A stretch of DNA of 64,000 nt from Pseudonocardia hydrocarbonoxydans. Its GTDB lineage: Bacteria > Actinomycetota > Actinomycetes > Mycobacteriales > Pseudonocardiaceae. The stretch covers positions 1 to 64,000 of the forward strand of contig NZ_BJNG01000018.1 of assembly GCF_006539565.1 (NCBI RefSeq), read 5' to 3'. Each line of letters begins with the position of its first letter. The first letter of the stretch is position 1. Positions 3,793 through 25,241 of the stretch are shown in pieces. The notes under the pieces were generated by a model. The model did not search any database and was not told the origin of the DNA. It saw only the letters and a list, made by a program, of their open reading frames with translations. A program made the translations under genes and the position numbers.

Positions 3793-5490
3793 TCAGGAGA
3801 GGTTGACGATGTTGCCGTCCCGGTCGATGTCGATCAGGTGCGCGGCGGGGGTGGCGCCCAGGCCCGGCATGGTGCGCATGTCGCCGCAGATCGGGTAGAT
3901 GAACCCGGCGCCGACCGACGCGCGCACCTCGCGCACGGGCAGTCGCCAGCCCGTCGGCGCGCCCGTCAGCGACGCGTCCGACGACAGCGACAGGTGGGTC
4001 TTGGCGATGCAGACCGGGAGGCCGCCGTAGCCGTTCGCCTCGTAGGTCGCGAGCTGGCGGGCGGCGAGCAGGTCGTAGTCCACCCCTGCCGCCCCGTAGA
4101 CCTTCGTGGCGATCGTCTCGATCTTCTCCCGGAGCGGGGCGGAGTCCGGGTAGAGGAAGCGGAAGGCCGACGGCTCGTCGGCGGCCTCGGCGACCGCCTC
4201 GGCCAGCTCCCGGGCCCCGCGACCGCCGTCGGTGAAGTGCGTGCAGACCGCCGCCCGCGCCCCCGCCTCCGCGGCGATCTCGGCGATCGCCGCGTGCTCG
4301 GACGGGTGGTCGCCGGGGAAGGCGTTGATCGCGACGATCGGCGAGACCCCGTGCAGCCGGATGTTCTCGATCTGCTTGCGCAGGTTGGCCCCGCCGATGT
4401 GGACCTCGTCGGGGTTCTCGGCGAACAGCGCGTCGGGCAGCGGCTGCCCGGCGACGATCCGGTGCCGCCCGGAGTGCGCCTTCAGCGCCCGCACCGTCGC
4501 CACGACGACCGCGGCGTCCGGGACGAGCCCCGACGCCCGGCACTTGATGTTGAAGAACCGCTCCGCACCCATGTCGGCCCCGAACCCGGCCTCGGTGACG
4601 AGGAACTCGCCGCTGTGGATGCCGATGAGGTCGGCGACGACCGAGGAGTTGCCGTGGGCGATGTTGCCGAACGGGCCGGCGTGCACGAGGACCGGCGTGT
4701 TCTCCAGCGTCTGCATGAGGTTGGGCTTGAGCGCCTCCCGCATGATGACGGTCATCGCGCCCGCGCCGCCGATGTCCTCCGCGGTGACCGGTGTGCGGCC
4801 CTTCGTGTAGCCGACGACGATGCGCCCGAAGCGTTCGCGCATCTCCTGCAGCGAGCGGCTGAGCGCGAGGATCGCCATCACCTCGCTCGCGGCGGTGATG
4901 TCGAACCCGGTCTGCCGCGGGATGCCGTCCATCCGGCTGCCCAGGCCGACGATCACGTTGCGCAGCGCGCGGTCGTTGACGTCGAGCACCCGCCGCCAGG
5001 TGATGTCGTGCGGGTCGATCCCGGTGGTGTTGCCCTGGAAGAGGTGGTTGTCCAGGACGGCCGAGAGCAGGTTGTGCGCGGCGGTGACCGCGTGGAAGTC
5101 ACCGGTCAGGTGCAGGTTGAGCGTCTCCATGGGGACGACCTGGCTGTAGCCGCCGCCCGCCGCGCCCCCCTTGATCCCGAACGTCGGGCCCATCGACGGC
5201 TGCCGGATCGCCACCGTGGCCTGCCGCCCGGTCGCGCACAGCGCCTGCCCGAGCCCGACGGTGGTGGTGGTCTTGCCCTCGCCCAGCGGTGTGGGGGTGA
5301 CGGCGGACACGACGACGTACTTCGCCCGGGGCCGGCCCGCGAGCTCGTCGACGGCGGAGAGCTTGATCTTGGCGACGTGCTCGCCGTAGGCCTCCATCAG
5401 GTGGGGCCCGATGCCCATGGCGGCGGCGACGTCCCCGAGCGGCTTGAGCGCGGCGCCCTGGGCGATCTGCAGGTCGGACGGGAAGGGCAT
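3793..5490 (-). CDS. fhs: Formate-tetrahydrofolate ligase
   Basis: A 565-aa protein of normal family length (about 556). It carries the ATP loop TPTPLGEGKTTTT at 65-77 and highly conserved blocks throughout (for example QPSMGPTFGIKGGAAGGGYSQ split across about 108-128, and NIKCRASGLVPDAAV). The enzyme links formate, THF and ATP to give 10-formyl-THF. Run in reverse it releases formate and makes ATP. It is the last gene of the six-gene leftward operon starting at mttB, 15 bp after metF. This context suggests the reverse, formate-releasing direction, disposing of methyl groups taken from methylated amines (inference). Confidence 0.97.
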   Translation of the reverse strand: MPFPSDLQIAQGAALKPLGDVAAAMGIGPHLMEAYGEHVAKIKLSAVDELAGRPRAKYVVVSAVTPTPLGEGKTTTTVGLGQALCATGRQATVAIRQPSMGPTFGIKGGAAGGGYSQVVPMETLNLHLTGDFHAVTAAHNLLSAVLDNHLFQGNTTGIDPHDITWRRVLDVNDRALRNVIVGLGSRMDGIPRQTGFDITAASEVMAILALSRSLQEMRERFGRIVVGYTKGRTPVTAEDIGGAGAMTVIMREALKPNLMQTLENTPVLVHAGPFGNIAHGNSSVVADLIGIHSGEFLVTEAGFGADMGAERFFNIKCRASGLVPDAAVVVATVRALKAHSGRHRIVAGQPLPDALFAENPDEVHIGGANLRKQIENIRLHGVSPIVAINAFPGDHPSEHAAIAEIAAEAGARAAVCTHFTDGGRGARELAEAVAEAADEPSAFRFLYPDSAPLREKIETIATKVYGAAGVDYDLLAARQLATYEANGYGGLPVCIAKTHLSLSSDASLTGAPTGWRLPVREVRASVGAGFIYPICGDMRTMPGLGATPAAHLIDIDRDGNIVNLS

Positions 5491-5505
5491 GGGTGTCTCC
5501 AGAGC

Positions 5506-6399
5506 TCAGGCGGTCACGCGCAGTCGGTCTCTGTCGTCGACGACGAAGTGGCCGTCGCGGATGTCGCCCGCCCACGCGGCGGTGGGCGCGAGCGCGCCGA
5601 ACGGGAAGAAGTGGATCCCCCGCAGCAGGCAGGCCGGGTCGGCGGCCGCGGCCGCCGCGACGCCGACGAGGGTGGCGTCGGGATGGTGGACGGGGGAGGT
5701 GGCCAGGCGCAGCACCCCGCCCGCCTGCTGGCGCAGCACCTTCAGCGACGCCCCCACCCCGCAGCGCAGGCCGAACCGCAGCAGGCGGGCGGGCGTCGTC
5801 AGGCCGGGCAGCCCGACGTGCACCGGCACGTCGACGCCGTGGGCCCGGATCCGGCGTTCCCACGCGACGATCGGCTCGGGGGCGAAGGCGAACTGGGTGA
5901 CCAGGTGCAGGTCCAGGCCGCGCTCCCGGGCGATGCGGCACTTGGCCAGCAGCGCGCGCAGCAGCTCGTCGTCGTCGACGTCGGGATGGCCCTCCGGATG
6001 GCCGACGATCCCGACGCGGGTGATGCCGGCGTCGGCCAGCAACCCGCTGTCGAGGACCTGGGCCGCCTCGTGGAACTCGCCGACCGGTGTGGTGAGCGAG
6101 CCGGCGAGGACCAGCAGGTCCCGCACGCCCACCGCGGCGAGGTCGGCGAGCATCCGCCGCAGGGTGGCGTGGTCGGGCACGGCCCGGGCCGCGAGGTGCG
6201 GCACCGGCCGCATCCCGGCGTCGCGGACCGACCGGGCGACCGCCACGGTGTCGGCCCACGGCGTGTGCGGCAGGAACGTGAGGTACACGGCCGTCCCGGG
6301 GGCCAGGACGTCGGCCAGGGGCGGGAGCGTCGGCGCCTCCCGCGGGGTGATCTCCACGCTGAACCGCGCCATCAGCTGCCGCACCACGGCGGGATCCAT
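5506..6399 (-). CDS. metF: 5,10-methylenetetrahydrofolate reductase family protein
   Basis: This 297-aa protein has the MTHFR TIM-barrel pattern: an N-terminal FSVEITP segment (in place of the usual EFFPP), PHLAARAV, DLLVLAGS, and a C-terminal GIHFFPFGAL block. It interconverts methyl-THF and methylene-THF using FAD. In this operon it most likely oxidises methyl-THF made by the pterin methyltransferase at 13683 (inference). It starts 3 bp after the etfA stop and ends 15 bp before fhs. It is a divergent relative of biosynthetic MetF, probably a catabolic paralogue. Confidence 0.9.
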   Translation of the reverse strand: MDPAVVRQLMARFSVEITPREAPTLPPLADVLAPGTAVYLTFLPHTPWADTVAVARSVRDAGMRPVPHLAARAVPDHATLRRMLADLAAVGVRDLLVLAGSLTTPVGEFHEAAQVLDSGLLADAGITRVGIVGHPEGHPDVDDDELLRALLAKCRIARERGLDLHLVTQFAFAPEPIVAWERRIRAHGVDVPVHVGLPGLTTPARLLRFGLRCGVGASLKVLRQQAGGVLRLATSPVHHPDATLVGVAAAAAADPACLLRGIHFFPFGALAPTAAWAGDIRDGHFVVDDRDRLRVTA

Positions 6400-6402
6400 C
6401 CC

Positions 6403-7359
6403 TCAGCCCCGCCGTCGCCGGATCTCGGCGTTGATCGCGGGGACGACCTCGTGCATGTCGCCGATCACCGCGTACGTCGCCTTGGTGACCATCGGCGCGG
6501 CCTCGTCGCTGTTGATCGCCAGGATCGTCCTCGAGCTCGCGCAGCCGGCCCAGTGCTGGATGGCCCCGCTGATGCCGCACGGGATGTAGACGTCGGGGGA
6601 GATGCGGCTGCCGGTCTGGCCGATCTGCTCGTGGTGGGGGCGCCAGCCCAGGCTGGTGACGACCCGGGAGACCCCGAGCGCGCCGCCGAGCAGCTCGGCC
6701 AGCTCGACGGTCGCGTCGAACCCGGCCGCCGACCCGGCCCCGCGCCCGGCGCCGACGACGACCCGCGCCGAGGTGAGCGCGTCCGACCGGCCGGCGTCGT
6801 CGACGGGCTCGACCGACACCACCCGGGCCACGAGGTCGGCGTCGGCGACCTGCGGGGTGAACGTGCGCAGCGTCGCCGTGACCCCGTCGCCGGGCTCGTC
6901 CTCGACGGCGTGGCCCGCGACCGTGAGCACGGCGGGGCGCGCGGGCAGCTCCATCTCCTCCAGCACCGAGCCGCCGACGACCTGACGGGTGACCCGCAGC
7001 GGGTCGCCGGCCCCGGCGGCCACGACGTTCGCGGCCATCGGCACGTCGAGGCGGGCGGCCAGGTGGGCGGCGACCTCCATGCCGCGCGGGGTGCCGGGGG
7101 CGACGACGACCCCGGCGTCGCCCGCCGCGTCCTGGACCGCCGCGGCCCAGGCGGCCCCGCCGAAGGCCGCGACCGCGTCGCCGACGGCGTGGTGGACGAC
7201 CTCGACGCCGTAGCGGCCGAGCTGCTCGACCACCCCGTCCGGCAGGGCCCCGACGACCACCGCGTGCAGCGGGGCGCCCATGCGCGCGGCGAGGGTGAGG
7301 GCCTCGCGCGAGACCTCGGTGGCGCCGGAGGCGTCGGTCTCCACGAACGCGAGAATCAT
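6403..7359 (-). CDS. etfA: Electron transfer flavoprotein alpha subunit
   Basis: A 318-aa protein. The C-terminal third is the canonical FAD domain: GQTGSRISPDVYIPCGISGA followed by IQHWAGCASSRTILAINSD. The N-terminal half is the more variable ETF domain. It pairs with EtfB to carry electrons from flavoprotein dehydrogenases to ETF:quinone oxidoreductase. The ATG at 7359 overlaps the etfB stop by 4 bp, so the two are translationally coupled. The direct neighbour upstream of etfB is the DMGDH-like dehydrogenase, its likely electron donor. Confidence 0.95.
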   Translation of the reverse strand: MILAFVETDASGATEVSREALTLAARMGAPLHAVVVGALPDGVVEQLGRYGVEVVHHAVGDAVAAFGGAAWAAAVQDAAGDAGVVVAPGTPRGMEVAAHLAARLDVPMAANVVAAGAGDPLRVTRQVVGGSVLEEMELPARPAVLTVAGHAVEDEPGDGVTATLRTFTPQVADADLVARVVSVEPVDDAGRSDALTSARVVVGAGRGAGSAAGFDATVELAELLGGALGVSRVVTSLGWRPHHEQIGQTGSRISPDVYIPCGISGAIQHWAGCASSRTILAINSDEAAPMVTKATYAVIGDMHEVVPAINAEIRRRRG

Positions 7360-8105
7360 CGCGCCACCCCCAGCTTCTCCAGCAGGTCGACCACCGACTT
7401 CGCCGCGTCCGGCCCCTCGCCGAGCACCTCGACCACGTTCGGTCGGGCGGGCGGCAGCAGCAGCCGCACCCGGCCCGGGCCGTCCGGCCCGCGTTGCGGT
7501 GTCACCGTCTCGACCCGCACCTTCTTCGCCTTCATCCGGCCGGTGATCGTCGGGTAGCGCGGCTCGACACCGCCCTCCAGCACGGTGACGACGGCGGGCA
7601 GCGGCACCGCGTAGTTCTCGATGCCGTCGGGCCCGTCGACCTGCGCGGTCACCGCGCCGTCCGCCACCTCGACGGTCCGCGCCCCGTTGACCACCGGGCG
7701 GCCCAGCGCGTACGCGAGCCGGATGCCGACCTGGAAGTCGCCGGTGTCGGCGGCGTCGTTGCCGAGCAGGACGACGTCGTGCTCCCGGGCCACGGCCGCG
7801 ATCTCGCGCGCCACGTCGGCCGGGCCGAACCCGGACGGGTCCGCCTCGATCAGCACCGCCCGGGAGCACCCCAGTGACAGGGCCGTCCGCAGCTGCTCGA
7901 CCGCGTCGTCGGTGCCCAGCGTCAGCACGGTCGCCGCGCCCCCGGTGCCGGTGGCGATCCGCACCGCCAGCTCCACCGCGCAGCTCTCGTGCGCGCTGAT
8001 CGTGTACCCGACGTGGCGGGCGTCGACGCCCTGCGCGTCGTCGGTGAGCGCCACCTCGCCCGCGACCTCGGGCACGCGCTTGATGCACACCAGCACGTCC
8101 GCCAT
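7356..8105 (-). CDS. etfB: Electron transfer flavoprotein beta subunit
   Basis: A 249-aa protein, normal for EtfB. It has the N-terminal CIKRVPEVAGE segment and the conserved later block GIENYAVPLPAVVTVLEGGVEPRYPTI (seen over roughly 160-187), and it would bind AMP. It lies 3 bp after the DMGDH-like gene and overlaps etfA by 4 bp. A dedicated ETF inside the cluster indicates that demethylation electrons go to the respiratory chain. Confidence 0.95.
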   Translation of the reverse strand: MADVLVCIKRVPEVAGEVALTDDAQGVDARHVGYTISAHESCAVELAVRIATGTGGAATVLTLGTDDAVEQLRTALSLGCSRAVLIEADPSGFGPADVAREIAAVAREHDVVLLGNDAADTGDFQVGIRLAYALGRPVVNGARTVEVADGAVTAQVDGPDGIENYAVPLPAVVTVLEGGVEPRYPTITGRMKAKKVRVETVTPQRGPDGPGRVRLLLPPARPNVVEVLGEGPDAAKSVVDLLEKLGVAR

Positions 8106-8108
8106 GGC

Positions 8109-10619
8109 TCAGCCCCGGATCCGCTCGTTGGTGGGGTCGAACAGCGGTGTGGCGTCGTTCGACCGCACGGTGACCGGGTAGAGCTCCTCCATGTAGGACA
8201 CGGCGAGCCGGTTGCCGACCACGGCCTCGTCCGGCGGCAGGTAGGCCATGAGCACGTGGGCGCCCAGCGACGGCGCCGACCCGGCGGAGGTGACGTAGGG
8301 GTGACGGCCGTGGCCGTCGGTCAGCGGGCCGCCGTCGCGGGTGAGGATCGGCTCGCCGCCGAGCATGTAGCGCCTGCCCCCGCTCGCCGACGTGTGGTCG
8401 TCGACGGTCATCGTGCACAGCACCGAGAGCGGCGCCGCCTCCCGCTGGGCGAGGTAGGCGTCGCGGCCCACGAAGCCGGCGTCCTTGACCTTCGGGCGGG
8501 CCATCCCCGCCTCGACGATGGACCGCTCGCCGTCGAGCTCGAACCCGTAGGCCCGGTAGCCCTTCTCCAGCCGGCCCGTCGTGCCGTACACGCCGATCCC
8601 GACCGGGACGGCGCCGTCCGGCCGCCCGGCCTCGTGCAGCAGGTCCCACACCCGGGCGCCCTGCTCCATCGGCACGTAGAGCTCCCAGCCCAGCTCGCCG
8701 ACATACGAGATCCGCGACGCCAGCACCTCGACGTTGCCCAGCTCGATGCGCCGGCAGGTGAGGAACGGGAAGCCCTCGTGCGAGATGTCGGCGTCGGTGA
8801 GGCGACCCAGCACGTCGCGGGCCCGCGGGCCCCACAGCCCGATCGTGGTGAACGCCGAGGTCTGGTCGACGACCGCGGCCCCCGCGGGGAGGTGGTCGGC
8901 GAACCACTTGAGGTCGGCCATGCCGTGCGCGCCGCCGGTGACGACGCGGTAGCGGTCGTGGGCCAGCCGCATGACGGTGAGGTCGGAGCGGAAGCCGCCC
9001 TTGGCGTCGAGCACCGGTGTGTAGATCACCCGGCCGTCGGCGACCGCGGCCTGCGCGACGACGATGCCCTGCACGGCCTGCTCCGCCGCGGGCCCGACCA
9101 CGTCGAAGATCGCGAACGCGGACAGGTCGACGATGCCGGCCCGCTCGCGCATCGCGAGGTGCTCGGCGTTGATGATCGGCGACCACCAGCGGGCGTCCCA
9201 CTCGTGCTCGCGCGGCATGACCCGGTCGCCGTACTCGCCGAGCAGCGCCTCGTTCGAGCGGTACCAGAACGGCCGCTCCCAGCCGACGGTCTCGAAGAAC
9301 TCCGCGCCCGCGGCCTGCTCGGCGGCGTGCATGGGCGCGAGGCGCTTGCCGCGCTCGCCGGACCACTGCTCGGCCGGGTGCACGATGCCGTAGGTCTTGT
9401 TGAACGCCTCGGACGTGCGCGACCGCACGTAGGCCCGGGTGCGCTGGTGCGGGTAGAAGCGGGCGATGTCGGCGTGGTGCACGTCGATCTCGGAGTGGCC
9501 GTGGGTCATCCACTCGGCGACCGCGCGCCCGACCCCGGGCCCCTCCTTGATCCACACCGCGGCCGCCGACCACAGGCCCTTGACCTCGGGGGTCTCGCCG
9601 AGCAGCGGCCCGCCGTCCGGGGTCAGCGAGAGCAGGCCGTTGATCGCGTAGCGCATCTCGGCCCCCTCGGCGCCGAGCGCGTCGGGCATCAGCTCGTAGG
9701 CCTGCTCCAGCTGCGGGTCGAAGTCGTCGGCGGTGAAGGGCATCTCGGTGGGGGAGAGCTTGGCCTGCTCGATGGACGGGATCTCCTCGGCGTCCATGAG
9801 GATCGGGCGGTGGGCGTAGGAGCCGACCTCCATGTCGGCGCCGTGCTGGCGCTCGTAGCAGAAGGTGTCCATGTCGCGGACGATCGGGAACGAGATCTCG
9901 CCCGGACGCTCGGCGAGCTGCGGGATCGGCCCGACCGAGATCATCTGGTGCACCGCGGGGGTGAGCGGGATCGACGCGCCCGCCATCGCGGCCAGCTTCG
10001 GGCTCCACACGCCGCAGGCGACGAGGACGGTGTCGGTCTCGATGTCGCCGCCGGTGGTGCGCACGCGGGCGATCCGGCCCGCCTCGACGTCCATGCCGAC
10101 GACCTCGACGGTCGGCACGACGGTGAGCGCGCCCATGGCCAGCGCGGACTCGCGGAACAGCGTGCCCGCGCGCAGCGAGTCGACGACGCCGACCGACGGG
10201 CACCAGAACGCGCCCAGGATCGTGTCCTTGTCCAGGAACGGCACGCGCGCGACGACCTGCTCCGGGGTGACCAGCTCGGCCTCGACCCCCCAGGCGCGCG
10301 CCGACGACATCCGCCTGCGCAGCTCCTCCATCCGCTCCTCGGTGCGGGCGACCTCGAACCCGCCGGACTCGGTGAACACGCCCAGCTCCTTGTACTGGCG
10401 CACCGAGTCCAGGGTGAGGTCGGCCAGCTCGCGGGAGTGGTCGACGGGGAAGATGAAGTTCGACGCGTGCCCGGTGGAGCCGCCCGGGTTGGGCAGCGGG
10501 CCCTTGTCGATCTGCACGATGTCGCGCCAGCCGAGCCGCGCGAGGTGGTGCACGAGGCTGTTGCCGACGATGCCGGCGCCGATCACGACGACGCGGGCGG
10601 TGGCGGGGACGGTGGCCAT
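8109..10619 (-). CDS. DMGDH/sarcosine dehydrogenase-like flavoprotein with GcvT domain
   Basis: This is an 836-aa fusion of an FAD-dependent amine oxidoreductase and a GcvT (aminomethyltransferase) domain, the architecture of dimethylglycine and sarcosine dehydrogenases. The dinucleotide motif GAGIVG is at 14-19. GGSTGHASN around 46-54 places His51 where DMGDH attaches FAD covalently. The C-terminal half (about 430-836) is GcvT-like and would load the released C1 unit onto THF as methylene-THF. Electrons pass to the adjacent ETF. An 11-bp gap separates it from mttB and 3 bp from etfB. The exact substrate (dimethylglycine, sarcosine or another N-methyl amine) is not readable from the sequence. 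Confidence 0.9.
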   Translation of the reverse strand: MATVPATARVVVIGAGIVGNSLVHHLARLGWRDIVQIDKGPLPNPGGSTGHASNFIFPVDHSRELADLTLDSVRQYKELGVFTESGGFEVARTEERMEELRRRMSSARAWGVEAELVTPEQVVARVPFLDKDTILGAFWCPSVGVVDSLRAGTLFRESALAMGALTVVPTVEVVGMDVEAGRIARVRTTGGDIETDTVLVACGVWSPKLAAMAGASIPLTPAVHQMISVGPIPQLAERPGEISFPIVRDMDTFCYERQHGADMEVGSYAHRPILMDAEEIPSIEQAKLSPTEMPFTADDFDPQLEQAYELMPDALGAEGAEMRYAINGLLSLTPDGGPLLGETPEVKGLWSAAAVWIKEGPGVGRAVAEWMTHGHSEIDVHHADIARFYPHQRTRAYVRSRTSEAFNKTYGIVHPAEQWSGERGKRLAPMHAAEQAAGAEFFETVGWERPFWYRSNEALLGEYGDRVMPREHEWDARWWSPIINAEHLAMRERAGIVDLSAFAIFDVVGPAAEQAVQGIVVAQAAVADGRVIYTPVLDAKGGFRSDLTVMRLAHDRYRVVTGGAHGMADLKWFADHLPAGAAVVDQTSAFTTIGLWGPRARDVLGRLTDADISHEGFPFLTCRRIELGNVEVLASRISYVGELGWELYVPMEQGARVWDLLHEAGRPDGAVPVGIGVYGTTGRLEKGYRAYGFELDGERSIVEAGMARPKVKDAGFVGRDAYLAQREAAPLSVLCTMTVDDHTSASGGRRYMLGGEPILTRDGGPLTDGHGRHPYVTSAGSAPSLGAHVLMAYLPPDEAVVGNRLAVSYMEELYPVTVRSNDATPLFDPTNERIRG

Positions 10620-10630
10620 GGTGTCCTCTC

Positions 10631-12085
10631 TCAGTCGCCGAGTTCGCGGCGGCGGCGGGTCACGTACGCGGCGAGCTCCTCGCGGACCGCGTCGTCCAGC
10701 GGCGGGGGCTCGTACTCGTCGATCTTCCTGCGGGCCAGCTCGCCGGCGCGGGTGGCGGCGTCCTTGCCGCCGCCCCGCATCCAGCGGTCGTAGTTGTCGG
10801 AGCTGTTGACGAACGGCCGGTAGAAGCAGGTCCGGAACCGTTCCATCGTGTGGGCCGCGCCGAGGAAGTGGCCGCCGTGGCAGACCTCGTCGTGCGCGTC
10901 GAAGGCCAGCGACGCCTCGTCGATCTCCAGCGGGGTGAACTCGTGCTGCAGCATCTCCAGCACCTGGCAGTCCAGGACGAACTTCTCGTAGCTCGCCACC
11001 AGCCCGCCCTCCAGCCAGCCCGCGGAGTGCATCACCCAGTTGATGCCCGCGAGGAACGTCGGGAGCATGGTCATCAGCGACTCGTAGCCGGCCTGGGCGT
11101 CGGCCGTCTGGCTCGACGTCAGCCCGCCGCCCGAGCGCACCGGCAGCCCGAAGTGCCGCGCGATCTGCCCGGTGCACAGCAGCCCGACCGCCGACTCGGG
11201 GGTGCCGAAGCACGGCGACCCGGACTGCATGTCGATGTTGGACAGGAACGACCCGAAGACCACCGGGCAGCCCGGGCGGATCAGCTGGGACAGCGCGATC
11301 CCGGTGAGCGCCTCGGCCATCTGCTGGGCCAGCGCCGCCGGGATCGACACCGGCGACATCGCCCCCATCAACAGGAACGGCGTGATGACGACGGCCTGGC
11401 CGGCCTCGCAGTAGGCGAACTGCGCCTCCAGCATGCGCTCGTCCCAGCGCAGCGGGGAATTACAATTGATCAAGGAGATGGTGGCGGGCGTGCGCTCGAT
11501 GGACTCCCGGCCGCCGAAAAGGATCTCCGTCATGGCCAGGGTGTCGGCGGCATTCACGCCGGAGACGACGTTGCCCATATAGATCTTGTCGGTGAGCGTC
11601 TGCAATGCGAAGGTCATGTCGAGGTGCCGTGAATCGAGCGGGGTGTCCTCCGGCTCGCACACGATCCCGCCCGCCGAGTCGAGCACGCCGAAGCCCTGCG
11701 ACAGGCGGGCGAAGTTCTCGAAGTCGTCCATCGTGGCGTCGCGGCGGACCTCGCCCTCGCGCACGAACGGCGGGCCGTAGACGGCGCCGAACGCCATGGC
11801 GTCGTCGCCGATGTGCACGGAGTTCGCCGGGTTGCGGGCCTGGACGTCGAACGAGCGCGGCGCCTTCGCGACCTGCTCCAGGACGAAGTCCGGGTCGAAC
11901 CGGACGATCCCGGCGCCTTCTTCGGACTCCTCGACCTTCTGCCCGGCCCGGCGGAACAGCTCCAGCGCCCGCTCGTCGCCGAACTCGACCCCGATCTCCG
12001 ACACCAGCCGTCGCCAGCCGCCGTCGAGGGTGGCCATCGCGTCCTCGGAGAGGATCTCGTAACGGGGCATCCGATTGCGGAACAT
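10631..12085 (-). CDS. MttB-family methylamine/betaine:corrinoid methyltransferase (non-pyrrolysine)
   Basis: A 484-aa protein, matching the usual MttB length. It aligns by eye with the trimethylamine methyltransferase superfamily (for example ISLINCNSPLRWDERML, GGGLTSSQTADAQAGYE, and HEVCHGGHFLGAAHT near the C-terminus). The frame is uninterrupted, with no amber codon, so this is a pyrrolysine-independent member, like enzymes acting on glycine betaine, proline betaine or carnitine. It would transfer a methyl to the corrinoid protein at 12996. I chose the ATG at 12085 (GGAGAAG upstream) over a frame extending to 12211, which would run through the divergent promoter. It is the first gene of the leftward operon. 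Confidence 0.9.
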   Translation of the reverse strand: MFRNRMPRYEILSEDAMATLDGGWRRLVSEIGVEFGDERALELFRRAGQKVEESEEGAGIVRFDPDFVLEQVAKAPRSFDVQARNPANSVHIGDDAMAFGAVYGPPFVREGEVRRDATMDDFENFARLSQGFGVLDSAGGIVCEPEDTPLDSRHLDMTFALQTLTDKIYMGNVVSGVNAADTLAMTEILFGGRESIERTPATISLINCNSPLRWDERMLEAQFAYCEAGQAVVITPFLLMGAMSPVSIPAALAQQMAEALTGIALSQLIRPGCPVVFGSFLSNIDMQSGSPCFGTPESAVGLLCTGQIARHFGLPVRSGGGLTSSQTADAQAGYESLMTMLPTFLAGINWVMHSAGWLEGGLVASYEKFVLDCQVLEMLQHEFTPLEIDEASLAFDAHDEVCHGGHFLGAAHTMERFRTCFYRPFVNSSDNYDRWMRGGGKDAATRAGELARRKIDEYEPPPLDDAVREELAAYVTRRRRELGD

Positions 12086-12153
12086 GCGCTTCTCCGCTCG
12101 TGACCGAATTCTGCTCGGGCCATCCGGCCTCTTGACGGGCCGGGCGACCGGCG

Positions 12154-12199
12154 TCACAGTAACCGCGTTTCCAGGAACAGCGGTTCCATACTGTGAAAC
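12154..12199. promoter_or_regulatory. Symmetric divergent promoters with palindromic operator
   Basis: Two perfectly mirrored boxes, TCACAGTA (12154-12161) and TACTGTGA (12189-12196), each contain TACTGT, which fits the actinobacterial -10 pattern TAnnnT, pointing outward to mttB and to iclR. Between them, centred on 12173, is an imperfect 25-bp palindrome (12161-12185) with 10 of 12 arm pairs matched: outer halves AACCGC and GCGGTT, inner TTCC-A-GGAA. A second inverted repeat, GGAAC-N4-GTTCC (12174-12187), overlaps it. -35 boxes are weak. The IclR protein encoded next door is the obvious ligand (inference). Confidence 0.7.
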
Positions 12200-12228
12200 T
12201 TTTGCCGACACAGGTTTAGAGGCGGATC

Positions 12229-12999
12229 GTGATGGCTACGCATACGGGCAGCCAGGCCGTCGAACGCGCGGGCGCCCTGCTCGGCGTCATCGTCGAGTCG
12301 GGGACGCCGCGCACCTTCAGCTCGCTCGTCGACGAGCTCGGCATGGCGAAATCCACCACCTCCCGGCTCCTGCACGCCCTGGAGCGCAGCAGGTTGGTGC
12401 ACCGCGACCGGGCGGGGGCGTTCCGCCCGGGCGCGCTGTTCTCGCTGCACGCGGCCCGGCCCAGCGCGCTGCACGACCTCTCCGAGCTCGCCCGGCCGAC
12501 GATGGAGCACCTGTCGGAACTGTCGCGGGAGACGGTGAACCTCGCCGTCCCGCGCGGCGGCACGCCCGTGCAGATCGACCAGGTGGAGAGCCGCTACCTG
12601 CTCGGGGCCGTCAGCTGGGTCGGGGTCGACGTGCCCGCGCACTGCACGGCGCTGGGCAAGGTGCTCTACGCCTACGGGGCGCTCGACCTGCCGCGCGGGG
12701 CGCTCGAACGCCGCACCGCGCACTCCCCGGTCGACCGTGCGCAGTTCGACCACGCCCTGATCGAGGTGCGGCGCCGGGGCTGGGCCGCCTCGCTCGACGA
12801 GCTGGAGCTGGGGCTCGCCGCCGTCGGTGCACCGGTGCGGACGGTCGACGGCACCGTCGTCGCGGCCGTCTCGGTGTCCGGCCCGACGAGCCGGGTCAAC
12901 GAGTACGGCATCACCCGCCTCGGCGACCTGCTGGTCGCCGAGCTCCGCGGCCTGTCGGCGCTGCTGGGCCACTACCCCGCTCGAAGGGACGTGTCATGA
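12229..12999 (+). CDS. IclR-family transcriptional regulator
   Basis: A 256-aa protein with an N-terminal winged helix (SLVDELGMAKSTTSRLLHALE at about 31-51) and a C-terminal IclR effector domain (PAHCTALGKVLYAY; GWAASLDELELGLAAVGAPV). It starts GTG-ATG at 12229/12232 behind GAGGCGG. It is the first gene of the rightward arm and overlaps the corrinoid-protein gene by 4 bp. It probably controls both arms through the palindrome at 12161-12185, with a methylated substrate or its product as effector (inference). Confidence 0.92.
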   Translation: MMATHTGSQAVERAGALLGVIVESGTPRTFSSLVDELGMAKSTTSRLLHALERSRLVHRDRAGAFRPGALFSLHAARPSALHDLSELARPTMEHLSELSRETVNLAVPRGGTPVQIDQVESRYLLGAVSWVGVDVPAHCTALGKVLYAYGALDLPRGALERRTAHSPVDRAQFDHALIEVRRRGWAASLDELELGLAAVGAPVRTVDGTVVAAVSVSGPTSRVNEYGITRLGDLLVAELRGLSALLGHYPARRDVS

Positions 13000-13679
13000 C
13001 CGACCACGCTGCGACAGAACACGCGGCGATCCTGCGCGGGCTCTACGACGAGACCCTCGTCGGCAACCGGCCGCGCGTGCTGGAGCTGACCCACGAAGGG
13101 CTCGCCGCCGGGCTGACGCCGGAGACGATGCTGTTCGACGCGCTCATCCCCTCGCTGGAGGAGGTCGGCGCCCGCTTCGAGCGCGGCGACTTCTTCGTCC
13201 CCGAGATGCTGGTGGCGGGCAAGGCGATGAGCGGAGCGCTGGACGTGCTGCGCCCGCTGCTGGCCGAGACCGGCGCCCGCACCGTCGGCACGTTCCTGAT
13301 GAGCACCGTCAAGGGCGACGTGCACGACATCGGCAAGAACCTGGTCAACATCATGCTGGAGGGCGCCGGCTTCCACGTGATCGACCTGGGCGTGCAGGTC
13401 TCGCCGGAGAAGGTGGTCGCCGGCATCCGCGAGCACAACCCGGACATCGTCGGCTTCTCGGCGTTCCTCACCACGACCATGCCGATGTTCAAGGCCAACA
13501 TCAACGCGCTGCAGAAGGCGGGCCTGCGCGACCAGGTGATCGTGATGGTCGGCGGCGCCCCGGTCACCCAGGAGTACGCCGACGCCGTCGGCGCCGACGG
13601 GTACGCCGCCGACGCCGCCACCGCCGTCCGCCGGGCCAAGGAGCTGCTCGCCGCCCGTCGCGCCACCGTGGGGGTCTGA
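12996..13679 (+). CDS. Corrinoid (B12-binding) methyl carrier protein, MttC/MtbC type
   Basis: A 227-aa protein with the two domains of methyltransferase corrinoid proteins: a helical cap (about 1-90) and a Rossmann-like B12 domain (about 95-215). It has the base-off ligand motif DVHDIG (108-113, His110), the TTTMPMF region and GGAPV. It shuttles a methyl between the MttB-family enzyme and the pterin methyltransferase. The ATG at 12996 overlaps the iclR stop by 4 bp, and the next gene starts 3 bp after its stop. Confidence 0.95.
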   Translation: MTDHAATEHAAILRGLYDETLVGNRPRVLELTHEGLAAGLTPETMLFDALIPSLEEVGARFERGDFFVPEMLVAGKAMSGALDVLRPLLAETGARTVGTFLMSTVKGDVHDIGKNLVNIMLEGAGFHVIDLGVQVSPEKVVAGIREHNPDIVGFSAFLTTTMPMFKANINALQKAGLRDQVIVMVGGAPVTQEYADAVGADGYAADAATAVRRAKELLAARRATVGV

Positions 13680-13682
13680 GAC

Positions 13683-14546
13683 GTGCACACCGTCCTGCGT
13701 TCCGCGACCCGCGAGGTCGTCATCGGCGGCGACCAGCCGTTCTGCCTGATCGGGGAGCGCCTCAACCCGACCGGCCGCAAGATCTTCGCCGAGCAGCTGC
13801 GCCGCGGCGACCTCTCGCGCATCGCCGTCGACGTCGAGGAGCAGGTCGCCGCGGGCGCGACGATGCTGGACGTCAACATGGGCATCCCGCTCGTCGACGA
13901 GGCCGAGCTGCTCGCGACGGCCGTCACGATGGTGCAGGACCTCACCGACCTGCCGCTGGTCATCGACTCGTCGGTCGTCGAGGCGCTGGAGGCCGGGCTC
14001 GCGGTCTACCGGGGCAAGGCGCTGGTCAACTCGGTCACCGGCGAGCGCGAACGGCTCGACGCGATCCTGCCGATCGTCGCCCGGCACGGGGCGGCGGTGA
14101 TCGCCCTGCCCAACGAGGAGGACGAGATCCCCGACGAGCCGGAGCGGCGGCTGGAGATCACCAGGAAGATCGTCGACATCGCGGTCGGCGAGTACGGCAT
14201 CCCGGTCGAGGACATCGTGATCGACCCGCTGGCGATGCCGGTGGGCGCCGACACGTCGCTGGTGCGGACGACCCTGCGCACCATCGAGCTGATCCACGAC
14301 GAGCTCGGCCTCAACATGACCCTCGGCGCCTCCAACGTCTCGTTCGGCATGCCCGGACGCGCCGCGCTGGGCGCGGGGTTCCTGGCCATGGCGATGCACG
14401 CGGGCCTGACCAGCGCGATCATGGACGTGCGCTCCCCGCAGATCGTCGAGGCGGTCAAGGCGGCCGACCTGCTGCTGGGCAACGACGACTGGGGCGCGGC
14501 GTGGATCGCGCGGTTCCGGGCCGCCCAGGCCGCGGCGGGGACCTGA
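13683..14546 (+). CDS. Methyltetrahydrofolate:corrinoid methyltransferase (MtrH/AcsE-like)
   Basis: A 287-aa pterin-binding TIM barrel. It opens with IGERLNPTGRK (the conserved INERxN-type motif), then VAAGATMLDVNMG, VIDSSVVEALEAGL and VNSVTGE, the folate-binding face of the MeTr/DHPS fold. It would move methyl between the corrinoid protein and THF. The start is GTG at 13683, 3 bp after the corrinoid gene. It is single-domain, unlike MetH, and matches partners of MttB-type systems. Confidence 0.93.
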   Translation: MHTVLRSATREVVIGGDQPFCLIGERLNPTGRKIFAEQLRRGDLSRIAVDVEEQVAAGATMLDVNMGIPLVDEAELLATAVTMVQDLTDLPLVIDSSVVEALEAGLAVYRGKALVNSVTGERERLDAILPIVARHGAAVIALPNEEDEIPDEPERRLEITRKIVDIAVGEYGIPVEDIVIDPLAMPVGADTSLVRTTLRTIELIHDELGLNMTLGASNVSFGMPGRAALGAGFLAMAMHAGLTSAIMDVRSPQIVEAVKAADLLLGNDDWGAAWIARFRAAQAAAGT

Positions 14547-14548
14547 TC

Positions 14549-14623
14549 CCCGTGCCCGACCTCCCCGTGCCCGACCTCCCCGCGCCGGACCCTCCTGTGC
14601 CGGACCCTCCTGCCCCGGACCGG
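14549..14623 (+). repeat. Five degenerate 15-bp tandem repeats encoding a Pro-Asp tail
   Basis: Units begin CCCGTGCCCGACCTC (twice), then drift to CCCGCGCCGGACCCT, CCTGTGCCGGACCCT and a fifth partial form. In the RACo reading frame they encode repeated P-V/A-P-D-L/P blocks. Three of the units contain an in-frame GTG, so the repeat array both lengthens the N-terminus and offers several start codons. Confidence 0.75.
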
Positions 14624-16456
14624 GTGCGGATCCGCTTCGAGCCCGACGGCGCGCAGTCGCGGGAGGTGCGGGTGCCCGCCGGGGCCACCCTGTTCGACGC
14701 CGCCAGCTGGAACGGCATCGCGGTCGACTCCACCTGCGGCGGGCACGGCACCTGCCGCAAGTGCCGGATGCGGGTCGTCGAGGGCGCCGTGCCGGTGTCG
14801 CGGCTCGACCCGCGGGCGTTCGGCCCCGACGAGCTGCGGGCCGGGTGGCGCCTGGCGTGCGTCGCGCACGCCGAGGGGGACCTGCGGGTCGAGGTGCCCC
14901 CGCTGGTCACCCGGCCGAAGGCGGCGACGGTCGGCGTCGGGCGGCAGGTGATCCTGCGGCCCGCCGTGCAGAAGCGGTGCGTCACGCTGACCGAGCCCAC
15001 GCTCGCCGACCAGCGCACCGACGTCGAACGCCTGCGTGACGCGCTGCCGGACCTGGAGCTGCGGATCGGGCTGCCGGTGACCCGCGACCTGTCCCGGGCG
15101 TTCCGGGCCGATCCGGTCGTCACCGCCGTCGTGGTCGACGACGTGCTCGTCGACGTCGAGCCCGGCGACACGGCCGCGCGGCTGTTCGGCATCGCCTTCG
15201 ACCTCGGCACGACCACCGTCGTCGCGACGCTGCTCGACCTCGCCACGGGCACGCCCGTCGCCGTCGCGTCCCTGCTCAACCCCCAGCAGCCCTTCGGCGC
15301 CGACGTGATCACCCGGATCAGCGCGACGATGATGGACCCCGACGCGCTCGGCAGGCTCACCGCGCTCGCCCATTCCGCCCTCGACCAGCTGGCCGGTGAG
15401 GTGTGCGCCGACGGGGGCGTCGACCGGCGCGAGGTCTACGAGATCGCGGTCGCCGGCAACGCGACGATGTGCCATCTCGCGCTCGGGCTCGACCCGGAGC
15501 CGCTGGGCGTCGCCCCGTTCGTCATGGCCGCGCGGTCCTTCGACGACCTCGGCGCGGCCGACCTCGGCGTCGCGGTGCACCCGCGGGCCCGCGCGTACGT
15601 GTTCCCGGCGCTGGGCGCCTACGTCGGCGGCGACATCGTCGCGGGCGCGCTGGCGTCGGGGATGGACCGCGACCGGCGGGTCCGGCTGTTCGTCGACATC
15701 GGCACGAACTGCGAGATCCTGCTCGCGGCGGGCGACCGGCTGCTCGCCACCGCCGCCCCGGCCGGACCGGCGTTCGAGGGGGCGGCCATCCGCTGCGGGA
15801 TGCGCGCCGCGCCGGGCGCCGTCGAGGGCGTCAAGATCAGCGACGAGGACGTGCTGCTGGAGGTCATCGGCGACGTCGCGCCGGTCGGGCTGGCCGGGTC
15901 CGGGCTCGTCGACGCCGTCGCCGCGATGGCCGCGGCCGGGCTCGTCGACCCGTCGGGGCGGCTCGTCGCGGCCGACGCGCCCGCGGTGCCGCCCGGCCTG
16001 GCCGCGCGGCTGCGCCTGGTCGGGAAGGAGCGGGTGTTCGTCCTGGCGACCCGGGAGGGGTACGCCACCGACGACCCGGCCGGCTGGCTCTACCTGTCCC
16101 AGCGCGACATCCGCGAGCTGCAGTTCGCCAAGGCGGCCATCGCGACCGGCTGGACGCTGCTGCTGGAGGGGCAGGGGCTCACCCCCGACGACGTCGCGCA
16201 GGTGCTGCTGGCCGGGTCGTTCGGCAGCTTCCTGTCCCCGGCCGCCGCGGTGCGGATCGGCCTGGTGCCCGACGTCGCGCTGCTGCGGATCGTGAGCGCG
16301 GGCAACGTCGCGGGGGAGGGGGCGAAGATGGCGCTGCTGTCGCTGCGCGAGCGCGCGGCGGCGCAGGCGCTGCTGGAGGAGGTGCACTATGTCGAGCTCT
16401 CCGACCGCGCCGACTTCAACGACCGGTTCGTCGACCGCCTCGCCTTCCCGGGCTGA
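14552..16456 (+). CDS. RACo-like reductive activator of corrinoid protein (2Fe-2S plus ASKHA ATPase)
   Basis: A 634-aa protein from the first GTG. Residues about 1-23 are a Pro-Asp repeat. Residues about 25-115 form a 2Fe-2S ferredoxin with Cys62, Cys68, Cys71 and Cys103 (C-x5-C-x2-C-x31-C). The rest is the RACo/ASKHA ATPase: DLGTTTV at 217-223, AVAGNATMCHL, FVDIGTNCEI, and LAGSFGSFLSP near the end. Such proteins use ATP and a low-potential electron to return inactive Co(II) corrinoid to Co(I). The start is uncertain: in-frame GTGs at 14552, 14567, 14597 and 14624 are all possible, and the last gives VRIRFEPDG, a typical ferredoxin start. Confidence 0.93.
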   Translation: MPDLPVPDLPAPDPPVPDPPAPDRVRIRFEPDGAQSREVRVPAGATLFDAASWNGIAVDSTCGGHGTCRKCRMRVVEGAVPVSRLDPRAFGPDELRAGWRLACVAHAEGDLRVEVPPLVTRPKAATVGVGRQVILRPAVQKRCVTLTEPTLADQRTDVERLRDALPDLELRIGLPVTRDLSRAFRADPVVTAVVVDDVLVDVEPGDTAARLFGIAFDLGTTTVVATLLDLATGTPVAVASLLNPQQPFGADVITRISATMMDPDALGRLTALAHSALDQLAGEVCADGGVDRREVYEIAVAGNATMCHLALGLDPEPLGVAPFVMAARSFDDLGAADLGVAVHPRARAYVFPALGAYVGGDIVAGALASGMDRDRRVRLFVDIGTNCEILLAAGDRLLATAAPAGPAFEGAAIRCGMRAAPGAVEGVKISDEDVLLEVIGDVAPVGLAGSGLVDAVAAMAAAGLVDPSGRLVAADAPAVPPGLAARLRLVGKERVFVLATREGYATDDPAGWLYLSQRDIRELQFAKAAIATGWTLLLEGQGLTPDDVAQVLLAGSFGSFLSPAAAVRIGLVPDVALLRIVSAGNVAGEGAKMALLSLRERAAAQALLEEVHYVELSDRADFNDRFVDRLAFPG

Positions 16457-17069
16457 CCGGGTCGCCGTCGTCGCCTGCGGGGCGATCGCCCGGCACGTGG
16501 CCGACGTCGCCGTCCGCCGCGGCTGGCCCGTCGACGTGCACCCGCTGCCGCCGTTGCTGCACAACCGCCCGGAGCGGATCGCCGCCGCGGTCGAGCGGCG
16601 CGTGCGCGAGCTGGGGCCGCACTACGCGCGGGTGGCGGTCGGGTACGCCGGCTGCGGTACCCGCGGGGCGCTGGACGAGGTGTGCCACCGGCTCGGCGTG
16701 CCCCGGCTCCCCGGCTCCGACTGCTACGAGGTCTTCGCCGGGGCCGCCCGCCTGCGTGCGGTCCTGGAGACCGAGCCCGGCACCTACCTGCTCACCGACT
16801 ACCTGGTGACCTCGTTCCACCGCTCGGTGGTGGTCGAACTGGGTCTCGACCGGTTCCCGCAGCTGCGCGAGGACTACTTCGGCCACTACCGCCGCGCCGT
16901 CTGGCTGGCCCAGCACCCGACCGCCGCCCTGCGCGCGGCGGCCGGACGGGCGGCGGGCGTGCTCGGCCTGCCGCTGGAGGAGGTCGTCGTCGGTGACGCC
17001 CTGCTGGAGCGGGCGCTGGAGGAACTCCTGGCGATGGGGCGCCGGCGTCAGCGGCGGGCCAGCAGGTAG
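16389..17069 (+). CDS. DUF1638 family protein
   Basis: A 226-aa protein with the DUF1638 features: VAVVACGAIARH, VGYAGCGTRGALDE and LPGSDCYEVFAG, including conserved cysteines that may bind metal or act catalytically. The function is not established, but the family repeatedly accompanies MttB-type corrinoid systems, and its position as the last gene of the rightward arm agrees. The only start codon before the conserved region is the ATG at 16389, which gives an unusually long 68-bp overlap with the RACo gene. Its 3' end overlaps the convergent methyltransferase gene by 22 bp. Confidence 0.85.
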   Translation: MSSSPTAPTSTTGSSTASPSRADRVAVVACGAIARHVADVAVRRGWPVDVHPLPPLLHNRPERIAAAVERRVRELGPHYARVAVGYAGCGTRGALDEVCHRLGVPRLPGSDCYEVFAGAARLRAVLETEPGTYLLTDYLVTSFHRSVVVELGLDRFPQLREDYFGHYRRAVWLAQHPTAALRAAAGRAAGVLGLPLEEVVVGDALLERALEELLAMGRRRQRRASR

Positions 17070-17701
17070 GCCTGCGGCGTCCGTTCGTCGGGACCGGGCT
17101 GCCGGACGGTGTGCGACCGCACCGACAGGCCCGCCGCCTCGAGCAGGGCGGCCATCCGCTCCGGGCGTCGGCGCAGGAAGGCCAGCTCGACGGCGTGCCC
17201 GAGCACGTCGGTCAGGACCAGCGGCTCGTCACCGACCTGGAACACGAGCAGGGCGTGGCCGCCGGGGGCCAGGACGCGGTGGAACTCCGCCAGCGCGCCG
17301 GGGAGCTCGTCGTCGGGCACGTGGATCGTCGAGTAGTAGGCGAGCAGCCCGCGCACCGAGGCGTCCGGCAGCGCCAGGTCGGTCATCGAGCCCACGGAGA
17401 ACCGCAGGCCGGGATGCGCGGCGCGGGCGAGGTCGACCATGCGCGGCGAGAGGTCGATCCCCGAGGCGTCGACGCCCAGCGCGTGCAGGTGCGCGGTGAT
17501 CCGCCCGCCGCCGCACCCGACGTCGACGACCGGCCCGTCCCCGACGAGCTCGGCGAACCACCCCAGCAGCGCCCGGTCCAGCGGCCGGGCGGCGAGGTCG
17601 TCGCGGGCCCACGGGACGTAGTCGGCGGCCACCGCGTCGTAGGACTCCCGCGTCCGGCGCACGTGCTCGGACTCGCCCACGGCGGCGACGCTACCGCTCA
17701 C
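17048..17701 (-). CDS. Class I SAM-dependent methyltransferase
   Basis: A 217-aa protein with the Rossmann methyltransferase core: motif I VVDVGCGGGRI, an acidic strand GIDLSPRMVDLARA, and LAPGGHALLVFQVGDE. The substrate is unknown. The GTG start at 17701 forms a 4-bp GTGA overlap with the upstream HemK-like gene, so translation is coupled. An in-frame GTG at 17680 is the alternative. It is the last gene of the patatin / HemK-like / methyltransferase operon. Confidence 0.85.
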   Translation of the reverse strand: MSGSVAAVGESEHVRRTRESYDAVAADYVPWARDDLAARPLDRALLGWFAELVGDGPVVDVGCGGGRITAHLHALGVDASGIDLSPRMVDLARAAHPGLRFSVGSMTDLALPDASVRGLLAYYSTIHVPDDELPGALAEFHRVLAPGGHALLVFQVGDEPLVLTDVLGHAVELAFLRRRPERMAALLEAAGLSVRSHTVRQPGPDERTPQAYLLARR

Positions 17702-18465
17702 CCTCCGGCCCCCGTTCCGACCACCACCGTCGCGTCCCGCTCCTCGTCGGCGACGATCCGGGTGGCGAGCCCGTGGCTCCGCACCGCCGCCGCCGTCGAG
17801 GGGGCCTGACGGTCGCTGGTCTCGATCAGCAGGTGCCCGCCGGGGGCGAGCCAGCGCGGCGCCGCGGCCGCCACGCGCCGCTGCACGTCGGTGCCGTCGG
17901 GCCCGCCGTCGAGCGCCACCCGCGCCTCGTGCAGCCGGGCCTCCGGCGGCATCAGCGGGATCGCGGCGGTCGGCACGTAGGGGGCGTTGGCCACCAGCAC
18001 GTCGACGCGCCCGCGCAGGTCGGCGGGCAGCGGGGCGTCGAGGTCGCCCTCGTGGACCCACCCGCCGGGCAGGTTGCGCCGGGCCAGCGCGACCGCGGCC
18101 GGGTCGACGTCGACGGCGTGCACCCGCGCACCGGGGACGGACGCGGCCACGACCGCACCGACGGCGCCCGTCCCGCAGCACAGGTCGACGAGCACGCCGC
18201 CCGGCGGGGTCAGCGCCACGGCCTGCTCGGCGAGGAACCCGGTGCGCCGCCGCGGCACGAACACCCCCGGGCCGACGGCGATGCGCAGCCCGCAGAACTC
18301 CGCCCACCCGAGCACGTGCTCCAGCGGCTCCCCGGCCACCCGCCGCGCGACGAGGGCGTCGAGTCCGGCGGGGTCCGTGGCGGCCGCGAGCAGCAGGCGC
18401 GCCTCGTCCTCGGCGAACACGCAGCCCGCGGCCCGCAGCCGCGCCACCACCTCCTGGCCGGTCAC
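17698..18465 (-). CDS. Putative protein N5-glutamine methyltransferase (HemK-like)
   Basis: A 255-aa protein resembling PrmC/HemK: an N-terminal helical domain (VARLRAAG...EDEARLL), RVAGEPLEHVLGWAEFCGL, VGPGVFVPRRRT, SAM motif VDLCCGTGAVG, and a catalytic segment VANAPYVP. The usual NPPY motif is NAPY here, as in an actinobacterial HemK-like subgroup, so release-factor methylation cannot be assumed. It has GTGA overlaps with both the patatin gene upstream and the methyltransferase downstream. Confidence 0.85.
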   Translation of the reverse strand: MTGQEVVARLRAAGCVFAEDEARLLLAAATDPAGLDALVARRVAGEPLEHVLGWAEFCGLRIAVGPGVFVPRRRTGFLAEQAVALTPPGGVLVDLCCGTGAVGAVVAASVPGARVHAVDVDPAAVALARRNLPGGWVHEGDLDAPLPADLRGRVDVLVANAPYVPTAAIPLMPPEARLHEARVALDGGPDGTDVQRRVAAAAPRWLAPGGHLLIETSDRQAPSTAAAVRSHGLATRIVADEERDATVVVGTGAGG

Positions 18466-19418: not shown

Positions 19419-19445
19419 GGCCGGATCATCCCCCGCGGGCGCCGG

Positions 19446-20981: not shown

Positions 20982-21076
20982 CCGGCCCACCCTGCCGCAC
21001 GGCCGTCCACGCCCGTTCGGGTGTCCCCGCCGCGCGCCGCCGGGGCGCGGCGGGGGACGGCGGTGAGGATCGCGCC

Positions 21077-22231: not shown

Positions 22232-22291
22232 GCCCGCCCGGATCCGCGTAGGCCCGCCCGGATCCCCATAGGCCCGCCCGGATCTCAGTAG
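22212..22291. repeat. Four tandem 20-bp repeats
   Basis: Four near-identical 20-bp units (form GCCCGCCCGGATCCCCGTAG, with 1-4 changes in each) run head to tail from the last codons of the DUF4038 gene to 9 bp before the next start. The unit length is not a multiple of three, so only the first copy is coding. Each copy ends in TAG. Confidence 0.9.
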
Positions 22292-22300
22292 GGTGGTGGC

Positions 22301-24570: not shown

Positions 24571-24577
24571 GAAGATC

Positions 24578-25227: not shown

Positions 25228-25241
25228 GGCGGCACCGTCTT

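Follow-up and report, generated by a model that had tools for sequence, protein, structure and literature searches.

A candidate B12-dependent glycine betaine catabolic cluster in Pseudonocardia hydrocarbonoxydans and other Actinomycetota

Cluster layout and the MttB homolog

The 64,000-nucleotide stretch of Pseudonocardia hydrocarbonoxydans analysed here (contig NZ_BJNG01000018.1, positions 1 to 64,000; hereafter the window) harbours at positions 3793-17069 eleven intact open reading frames (ORFs), arranged as two divergent, tightly packed operons with six genes on the minus and five on the plus strand. Pfam and NCBIfam place a cobalamin carrier, a pterin-binding methyltransferase and an MtgB-type protein, together with a RamA-like reactivase and a DUF1638 protein, in this one cluster, which probably constitutes a B12-dependent island for the catabolism of glycine betaine (GB). 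A first-pass annotation made from the sequence alone had reported eleven genes in two divergent operons, and all of them were recovered intact on the strands it gave; the gene families it named were all matched by Pfam, that of MetF weakly (31 bits against a cut-off of 24). Spacing within the operons ranges from a 4-bp overlap to a 15-bp gap, with the exception of the RACo and DUF1638 genes, whose overlap reaches up to 68 bp when DUF1638 is taken from its first start.

The minus-strand operon begins with an mttB/mtgB-like gene (10631..12157; start at 12211, 12157 or 12085), whose product matches the MTTB family with 607 bits and is, by identity and tree position, a putative GB:corrinoid methyltransferase. 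This protein is 44% identical to 4yyc and 41% to Desulfitobacterium hafniense MtgB (2qne), as against 26% to the pyrrolysine-containing MttB 7xcl, and it scores 388-409 bits against solved MtgB-type proteins compared with 118 bits against the latter, being thus nearer to solved MtgB on both measures. Passages of PMC9842639 identify 2qne as MtgB, and 9yce, whose aligned sequence is identical, was deposited under the name glycine betaine methyltransferase. Where M. barkeri MttB has pyrrolysine, the window protein and D. hafniense MtgB both align a leucine, and the earlier description of the former as a non-pyrrolysine homolog therefore holds.

The own genome codes for a single MTTB protein. An MttB protein occurred in 17 of the 120 relatives searched (the own genome, 15 congeners and one member of another family of the same order), and PF06253 matched in 65 of 396 genomes of the phylum and in none of the 15 other same-order genomes listed in that search. 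Among the best 80 loci of a genome scan, 50 showed 65-88% identity and 30 showed 43-49%; the former, where titled, belong to Actinomycetota (Pseudonocardia, Nocardioides, Pimelobacter, Phycicoccus, Planobispora, Trebonia and others) and also include metagenome-assembled genomes (MAGs) of Solirubrobacterales and Acidimicrobiaceae, and the latter belong mostly to Pseudomonadota and Chloroflexota. In a tree of 119 MttB rows (a quick type with SH-aLRT support only, long branches flagged, and MtpB, MtcB and MtyB not included), the 61 rows at least 60% identical to the window protein formed one side of a branch with an SH-aLRT of 100. The solved 4yyc fell inside a Pseudomonadota group and 2qne outside both this and the actinobacterial group, and other rows from the window's phylum lay outside the 61-row clade, either with the Pseudomonadota or in a third group. 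This actinobacterial MtgB clade of 61 loci, as delimited by sequence, appears to be new here; searches of the open-access literature listed no actinobacterial MtgB study. One contig titled Bifidobacterium breve (isolate MaH-09apr19-236; L119, L numbers denoting compared loci) has an MttB cluster of the actinobacterial type and falls among Actinomycetota MAG rows in the tree; its species label is probably wrong.

Gene context was compared across 121 sources (40 and 80 loci together with the window's first 26 kb), with genes called by a GC3-based script, so that small genes can be missed. Five duplicates (L092-L095, L124) and two loci without a called MttB (L125, L154) were removed before counting; other duplicate genomes may remain in these counts, and counts of alignment rows include the named duplicates unless stated. 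Of the 61 clade loci, 26 extend over less than 17 kb, and the comparison set consists of 53 more distant MttB loci rather than random ones. Within Pseudonocardia, represented by the window and 13 of the 15 congeneric genomes with an MttB protein, genes for IclR, the corrinoid protein (CoP), the methyl-tetrahydrofolate:corrinoid methyltransferase (MeTr), RACo and DUF1638 stand in this order opposite MttB in 14/14 loci, the IclR of L064 being recovered by tblastn only. In the downstream half, genes for a dimethylglycine dehydrogenase (DMGDH), EtfB and EtfA follow one another in 9/14, and MetF2 and Fhs come after them in every such locus that extends far enough, L062 excepted. An order conserved to this extent is not chance. 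The full CoP-MeTr-RACo-DUF1638 core was found in 42 of the 61 clade loci.

Corrinoid carrier, reactivase and regulator

The mtgC-like corrinoid protein (12996..13679, plus strand) has B12-binding domains and the DxHxxG motif, present in 88/88 aligned rows, five of these duplicates; NCBIfam models describe it as MtgC/MtbC-like, but with scores below their cut-offs. It is followed by the mtgD-like MeTr (13683..14546, plus strand), a Pterin_bind protein that reaches 287 bits for NF005719 (cut-off 259). Next comes the RACo/RamA-like corrinoid reactivase (14552..16456, plus strand), which has RACo domains and matches solved RACo (3zyy) with 321 bits over residues 26-630 of 634. It combines the N-terminal [2Fe-2S] and ASKHA domains of RACo/RamA reactivases, and the four-cysteine [2Fe-2S] pattern is present in the window protein and in 75/82 rows.

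The last gene of the operon (16389, or a later start, to 17069, plus strand) codes for a DUF1638 protein (73 bits), a proposed accessory to corrinoid reactivation. Three cysteines and one histidine are invariant in 74/74 aligned rows (four of these duplicates), and we suggest that this set may form a metal or redox site. The predicted model is confident (pLDDT 96.7); no Foldseek match was obtained for it at E ≤ 0.001, and a sequence search of the PDB returned chance-level matches (best E 0.11). Fold relatives of the Rossmann-like, lumazine-synthase-like and racemase-like kinds reached a VIA Z of at most 9.5, with no clear match to a solved structure. The assignment of DUF1638 to B12 reactivation rests on genetics: fitness data from Phaeobacter cover a RamA-like protein together with DUF1638, and passages of that study make no specific proposal for it (PMC5764234). 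Right after DUF1638, on the opposite strand, lie two S-adenosylmethionine-dependent methyltransferase-like genes (17048-18465). A CobW-like GTPase gene (31972-33192) is located about 15 kb from the corrinoid cluster, with no evidence of a link.

Corrinoid protein, MeTr, RACo-like protein and DUF1638 are also the families of the split MetH system described in passages on Phaeobacter (PMC5764234), and the cluster might accordingly be read as a split methionine synthase/GB methyltransferase of the Ruegeria kind, serving chiefly methionine synthesis. We regard this as highly improbable here. No homocysteine-binding, MtgE-type domain was found by Pfam among the cluster genes, genes for DMGDH, ETF (electron transfer flavoprotein) and Fhs are co-operonic, and a MetH reactivation domain lies in a 1306-aa open frame elsewhere in the own genome, which suggests that the cluster itself is catabolic.

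The gene for the IclR-family regulator (12229..12999, plus strand, start at 12229 or 12232; IclR_C and HTH_IclR domains) diverges from mttB, and between the two lies the palindrome GGAAC-agcg-GTTCC (12174..12187), which falls within the mttB ORF if the 12211 start holds. Of 43 divergent loci, 24, spanning Pseudonocardia to Solirubrobacterales, have the pattern GGAAC-N4-GTTCC in the mttB-iclR interval, and it appeared 0 times in 200 dinucleotide-preserving shuffle rounds; since the loci are related, its occurrences are not independent. One further divergent operon pair (divergon) showed a palindrome with a 3-bp spacer, and 7/43 gave no match even with one mismatch. The own genome contains the pattern at five places, one of them in this divergon, where about four are expected from base composition (the reversed-pattern control gave 0). 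A wider IclR regulon was considered and set aside, the flanks of the other four palindromes and four own transporter regions lacking a convincing second site. We infer that the IclR protein binds this putative operator and, in whichever sense, controls the divergon; the shared mttB-iclR palindrome appears, on sequence comparison, to be new here.

Dimethylglycine dehydrogenase and the folate enzymes

Downstream of mttB, the minus strand carries the DMGDH gene (8109..10619; DAO, FAO_M and GCV_T domains, the FAD and folate architecture), followed by etfB (7356..8105; ETF domain) and etfA (6403..7359; ETF and ETF_alpha domains). The DMGDH retains the HQ, GSYAHRP and RSDLTV motifs and scores 530 bits against Arthrobacter dimethylglycine oxidase (DMGO; 1pj5), compared with 269 bits against mammalian DMGDH. 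Where that end of the gene was in view, EtfB directly followed window-type DMGDH (50% identity or more to the window protein) in 21/21 loci, four more ending too early, and other DMGDH types in 0/17, one more ending too early. EtfBA thus pairs with DMGDH and not with MetF. EtfBA as an acceptor for MetF2 was considered and set aside: EtfB stands after DMGDH in 21/24 loci and is the first gene in view in the remaining three, and MetF2 adjoins EtfA in 10/37. The earlier proposal of methyl transfer joined to an ETF-linked dehydrogenase and a folate oxidation branch is supported by gene content and context, refined to the extent that ETF belongs with DMGDH.

Passages of a study on the human enzyme tie oxygen reactivity to residues by the flavin, Pro and Val in the oxidase and Ala and Ile in the dehydrogenase, and state that mutagenesis is still needed (PMC5082570). 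As these passages are without residue numbers, the columns used here were inferred (the sole Pro/Ala column by the flavin-binding His, and a Val/Ile column chosen among four), and at these columns the window DMGDH has Ser53 and Ile357, and thus not the Pro and Val near the flavin that mark an oxygen-dependent dimethylglycine oxidase. The 21 ETF-linked proteins have Ser in 21/21, with Ile in 18/21 and Val in 3/21, and the four window-type rows lacking the downstream end have Ser in 4/4 and Ile in 3/4. A group typified by L059 has Pro and Val in 5/5, like the solved oxidase; among the remaining 13 rows the pairs vary (Ala + Leu in 7, Pro + Val in 3, and Ala + Ile, Ser + Val and Ala + Val in 1 each).

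In three of the 14 Pseudonocardia loci (L058, L059, L063) a DMG-oxidase-like protein without ETF takes the place of DMGDH-EtfBA, the MttB core being kept, and the ETF-less variant of some Pseudonocardia is clearly oxidase-like (952 bits to 1pj5). P. bannensis (L064) shows the row MttB-DMGO-SoxB-like-SoxD-SoxA, with MetF2 and Fhs beyond DUF1638, and no DMG (dimethylglycine) gene is in view in L060. In L059 an EF-Tu-like gene (7002-8207) lies directly 3' of the DMG-oxidase-like gene.

ETF-QO (PF05187) gave no match in the own genome, the control being positive in three genomes. The own genome does contain an EtfD-like ORF (CCG and Fer4 domains) that shares 47% identity with a counterpart beside EtfA in L127, and EtfD connects ETF to menaquinone in mycobacteria (PMC13083937). 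From these comparisons the window DMGDH appears to be ETF-linked and wired to respiration instead of oxygen, representing a seemingly new branch of DMG dehydrogenases with the Arthrobacter oxidase, not the mammalian enzyme, as the nearer relative.

The operon ends with metF2 (5506..6399, minus strand) and the formate-tetrahydrofolate (THF) ligase gene fhs (3793..5490, minus strand; FTHFS, 812 bits). MetF2 would be a divergent methylene-THF reductase oxidizing methyl-THF: besides its weak Pfam MTHFR match it reaches 38.9 bits in the NCBIfam fadh2 model for canonical MetF (cut-off 293.7), making it a divergent relative. Its best solved match is 7xg9 (203 bits; other MTHFRs at most 34 bits), which we take to derive from Sphingobium SYK-6. 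The ligM-metF-ligH operon of that strain is thought, in passages of PMC6888825, to dispose of the methyl-THF of O-demethylation. The MetF-Fhs pair of the window, seemingly new here, resembles this pairing, which speaks for the catabolic reading. A pair of MetF and a MetV-like protein (DUF5981) replaces MetF2 in the corrinoid operon of 13/61 clade loci (e.g. L111, L119, L126), and both MetF types occur together in 0/61; MetVF enzymes are known from acetogens (PMC8760232).

In the preferred reading Fhs would run toward formate, possibly with a yield of ATP. The opposite, assimilatory direction, in which MetF2 and Fhs would turn formate into methyl-THF and the cluster would feed one-carbon units to the corrinoid protein, is favoured by both enzymes being reversible in principle and by PurU, encoded in 13/61 related loci, which would release formate without ATP and could dispose of formyl-THF instead. 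The metabolic logic alongside DMGDH, a canonical MetF (298 bits) elsewhere in the own genome, and the finding that no Ruegeria protein differed more in synthesis on N-osmolytes than MetF2 (PMC12478193) argue against it, and we give it very little credence relative to an oxidative folate branch. Across the 61-locus clade, Fhs was called in 15 loci and a MetF type in 38.

Betaine context, proposed pathway and known systems

In the 61-locus clade, neighbouring genes include GMC oxidoreductase (21 loci), aldehyde dehydrogenase (26), OpuA-type permease (17), OpuAC (14) and BCCT (5). GMC oxidoreductase and aldehyde dehydrogenase occur together in 17/61 clade loci as against 0/53 of the more distant ones, and any of GMC, OpuA-type permease, OpuAC and BCCT in 27/61 as against 11/53. 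A first, laxer count of any betaine or choline gene (38/61) was dropped in favour of these, as its ABC-ATPase cluster also holds oligopeptide-type ATPases and aldehyde dehydrogenases are unspecific. In the closest relative of the window (L052), ABC ATPase, permease and OpuAC genes adjoin DUF1638. The own genome contains three BCCT and three OpuAC matches above cut-off, one BCCT sharing 74% identity with a BCCT of one of the compared loci. These neighbours fit a route from choline through GB and DMG to sarcosine, with evidence mostly from relatives rather than from the window. The first-pass annotation had proposed betaine-type methyl groups as the substrate; transfer of a quaternary amine methyl to THF agrees with the context, which favours GB over betaines generally. 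A small PF13769 'Virulence_fact' protein was found in the corrinoid operon of 21/53 more distant loci (e.g. L078, L066) and in 0/61 of the window clade.

Several observations weigh against GB as the substrate or against parts of the route. Choline-oxidation-type or GB-transport-type genes occur in 25/47 clade loci outside Pseudonocardia and in 2/14 inside; GMC, OpuA-type permease, OpuAC and BCCT are all out of view in 12/14 Pseudonocardia loci, and the window flanks, as scanned at 1642-2826 and in nine of ten called genes at 17048-28256, contain no choline-oxidation or GB-transport gene. The SoxA type occurs in just 1/61 clade loci, tetrameric sarcosine oxidase being thus rare; the own genome yielded no sarcosine-demethylating enzyme, with no SoxD in a search in which control genomes gave no match either, and no second DMGDH/SoxA-type gene beyond one short folate-domain match. 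At the Asp120-equivalent of MetF2 (presumably in E. coli numbering), 8/36 rows, the window and other Pseudonocardia of the same operon type, have Ser and 25/36 have Asp, duplicates left out, which makes the activity of MetF2 uncertain. The 41-44% identity to solved MtgB-type proteins does not fix the substrate of the MttB homolog, and the MttB paralogues MtcB and MtyB, 53% alike, differ in substrate use, according to passages of PMC8604678. The same machinery might thus demethylate a different quaternary amine, such as proline betaine, carnitine or gamma-butyrobetaine, or have several substrates, with the DMGDH-like enzyme acting on the matching N-methyl amino acid, as the sparse betaine context within Pseudonocardia would also allow. 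We consider this unlikely in view of the GMC and aldehyde dehydrogenase pair in relatives, the DMG-oxidase-like and tetrameric sarcosine oxidase genes of congeners, and the single MttB of the own genome, and retain GB as the probable substrate.

Elsewhere in the window, a plus-strand run (52424-63998) with a zinc alcohol dehydrogenase, ABC ATPase, MlaE permease and MlaD/Mce4_CUP1 proteins represents an mce-type lipid/sterol uptake operon.

In the proposed pathway, the MtgB-type enzyme would transfer one methyl from GB, which becomes DMG, to the Co(I) of the corrinoid carrier, and the MtgD-type enzyme would pass this methyl on to THF, RACo with DUF1638 re-reducing Co(II). MetF2 would convert methyl-THF to methylene-THF. 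DMG dehydrogenase would oxidize DMG to sarcosine, loading the carbon on THF and passing electrons to EtfBA, and from there through the EtfD-like membrane protein to menaquinone. Methylene-THF would be converted to formyl-THF by a putative FolD, and Fhs would free formate, possibly with ATP, the divergon being governed by IclR through GGAAC-N4-GTTCC. As a bolder and tentative proposal, on balance somewhat doubtful, many aerobic Actinomycetota might respire GB without oxygenases and oxidases, through an undescribed ETF-linked branch of the DMG-oxidase family that lost oxygen reactivity by replacing the flavin-side proline, with DUF1638, bearing the invariant Cys3-His set, as a metal or redox partner of RACo. 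If so, the quinone pool or NAD(P)H would take up the electrons from the methyl groups of GB and DMG, so that GB use would be possible where oxygen is very low and would involve no H2O2.

To our knowledge, no oxygenase-free route for removal of the first GB methyl has been demonstrated in actinobacteria. The cluster offers a concrete B12-dependent candidate for this step in Pseudonocardia, Nocardioides, Phycicoccus and Trebonia, all of them genera that include named strains, ties GB demethylation to a testable dehydrogenase/oxidase switch within one enzyme family, and draws attention to the conserved Cys/His set of DUF1638. Our searches of the open-access literature listed no earlier account of this divergon in actinobacteria, of its DMG dehydrogenases tied to ETF or of the IclR palindrome.

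The view that MttB-type transfer would be unexpected in aerobes is superseded, and the cluster is less novel than first claimed, because an aerobic MtgBCD GB demethylase with RamA-like protein, DUF1638 and MetF2 was studied in Ruegeria in 2025 by means of mtgC and mtgD mutants and proteomics (PMC12478193). In aerobes the MtgBCD core genes are often co-located with later demethylation steps, and 5% of ocean mtgC reads were assigned to Actinomycetota (PMC12478193). The window shares MtgB, MtgC, MtgD, RamA-like protein, DUF1638 and MetF2 with the MtgBCD(E) systems of Ruegeria pomeroyi, Phaeobacter and Sinorhizobium, which act on GB in aerobic hosts, as is proposed here (PMC12478193; passages of PMC5764234); unlike them, it has a single divergon with IclR and no MtgE therein, an operon with ETF-linked DMGDH and Fhs, and an MtgB in a separate actinobacterial clade. 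MtgB of D. hafniense (2qne, 9yce) is also a non-pyrrolysine MttB homolog, but from an anaerobe and outside the actinobacterial and Pseudomonadota tree groups. The DMG oxidase of Arthrobacter globiformis (1pj5) shares the FAD and folate architecture and the HQ, GSYAHRP and RSD-TV motifs, and differs in Pro/Val against Ser/Ile in the window type, which is followed by EtfB wherever in view. Mammalian mitochondrial DMGDH with ETF passes DMG carbon to folate and electrons to ETF, as the window type would, but is less similar in sequence, and the own genome has an EtfD-like protein in place of an ETF-QO match. The ligM-metF-ligH operon of Sphingobium SYK-6 presumably differs in that its methyl source is an aromatic methoxyl group and in having no corrinoid protein. 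It is alike in that MetF adjoins a formate-THF ligase in the disposal of methyl-THF (passages of PMC6888825).

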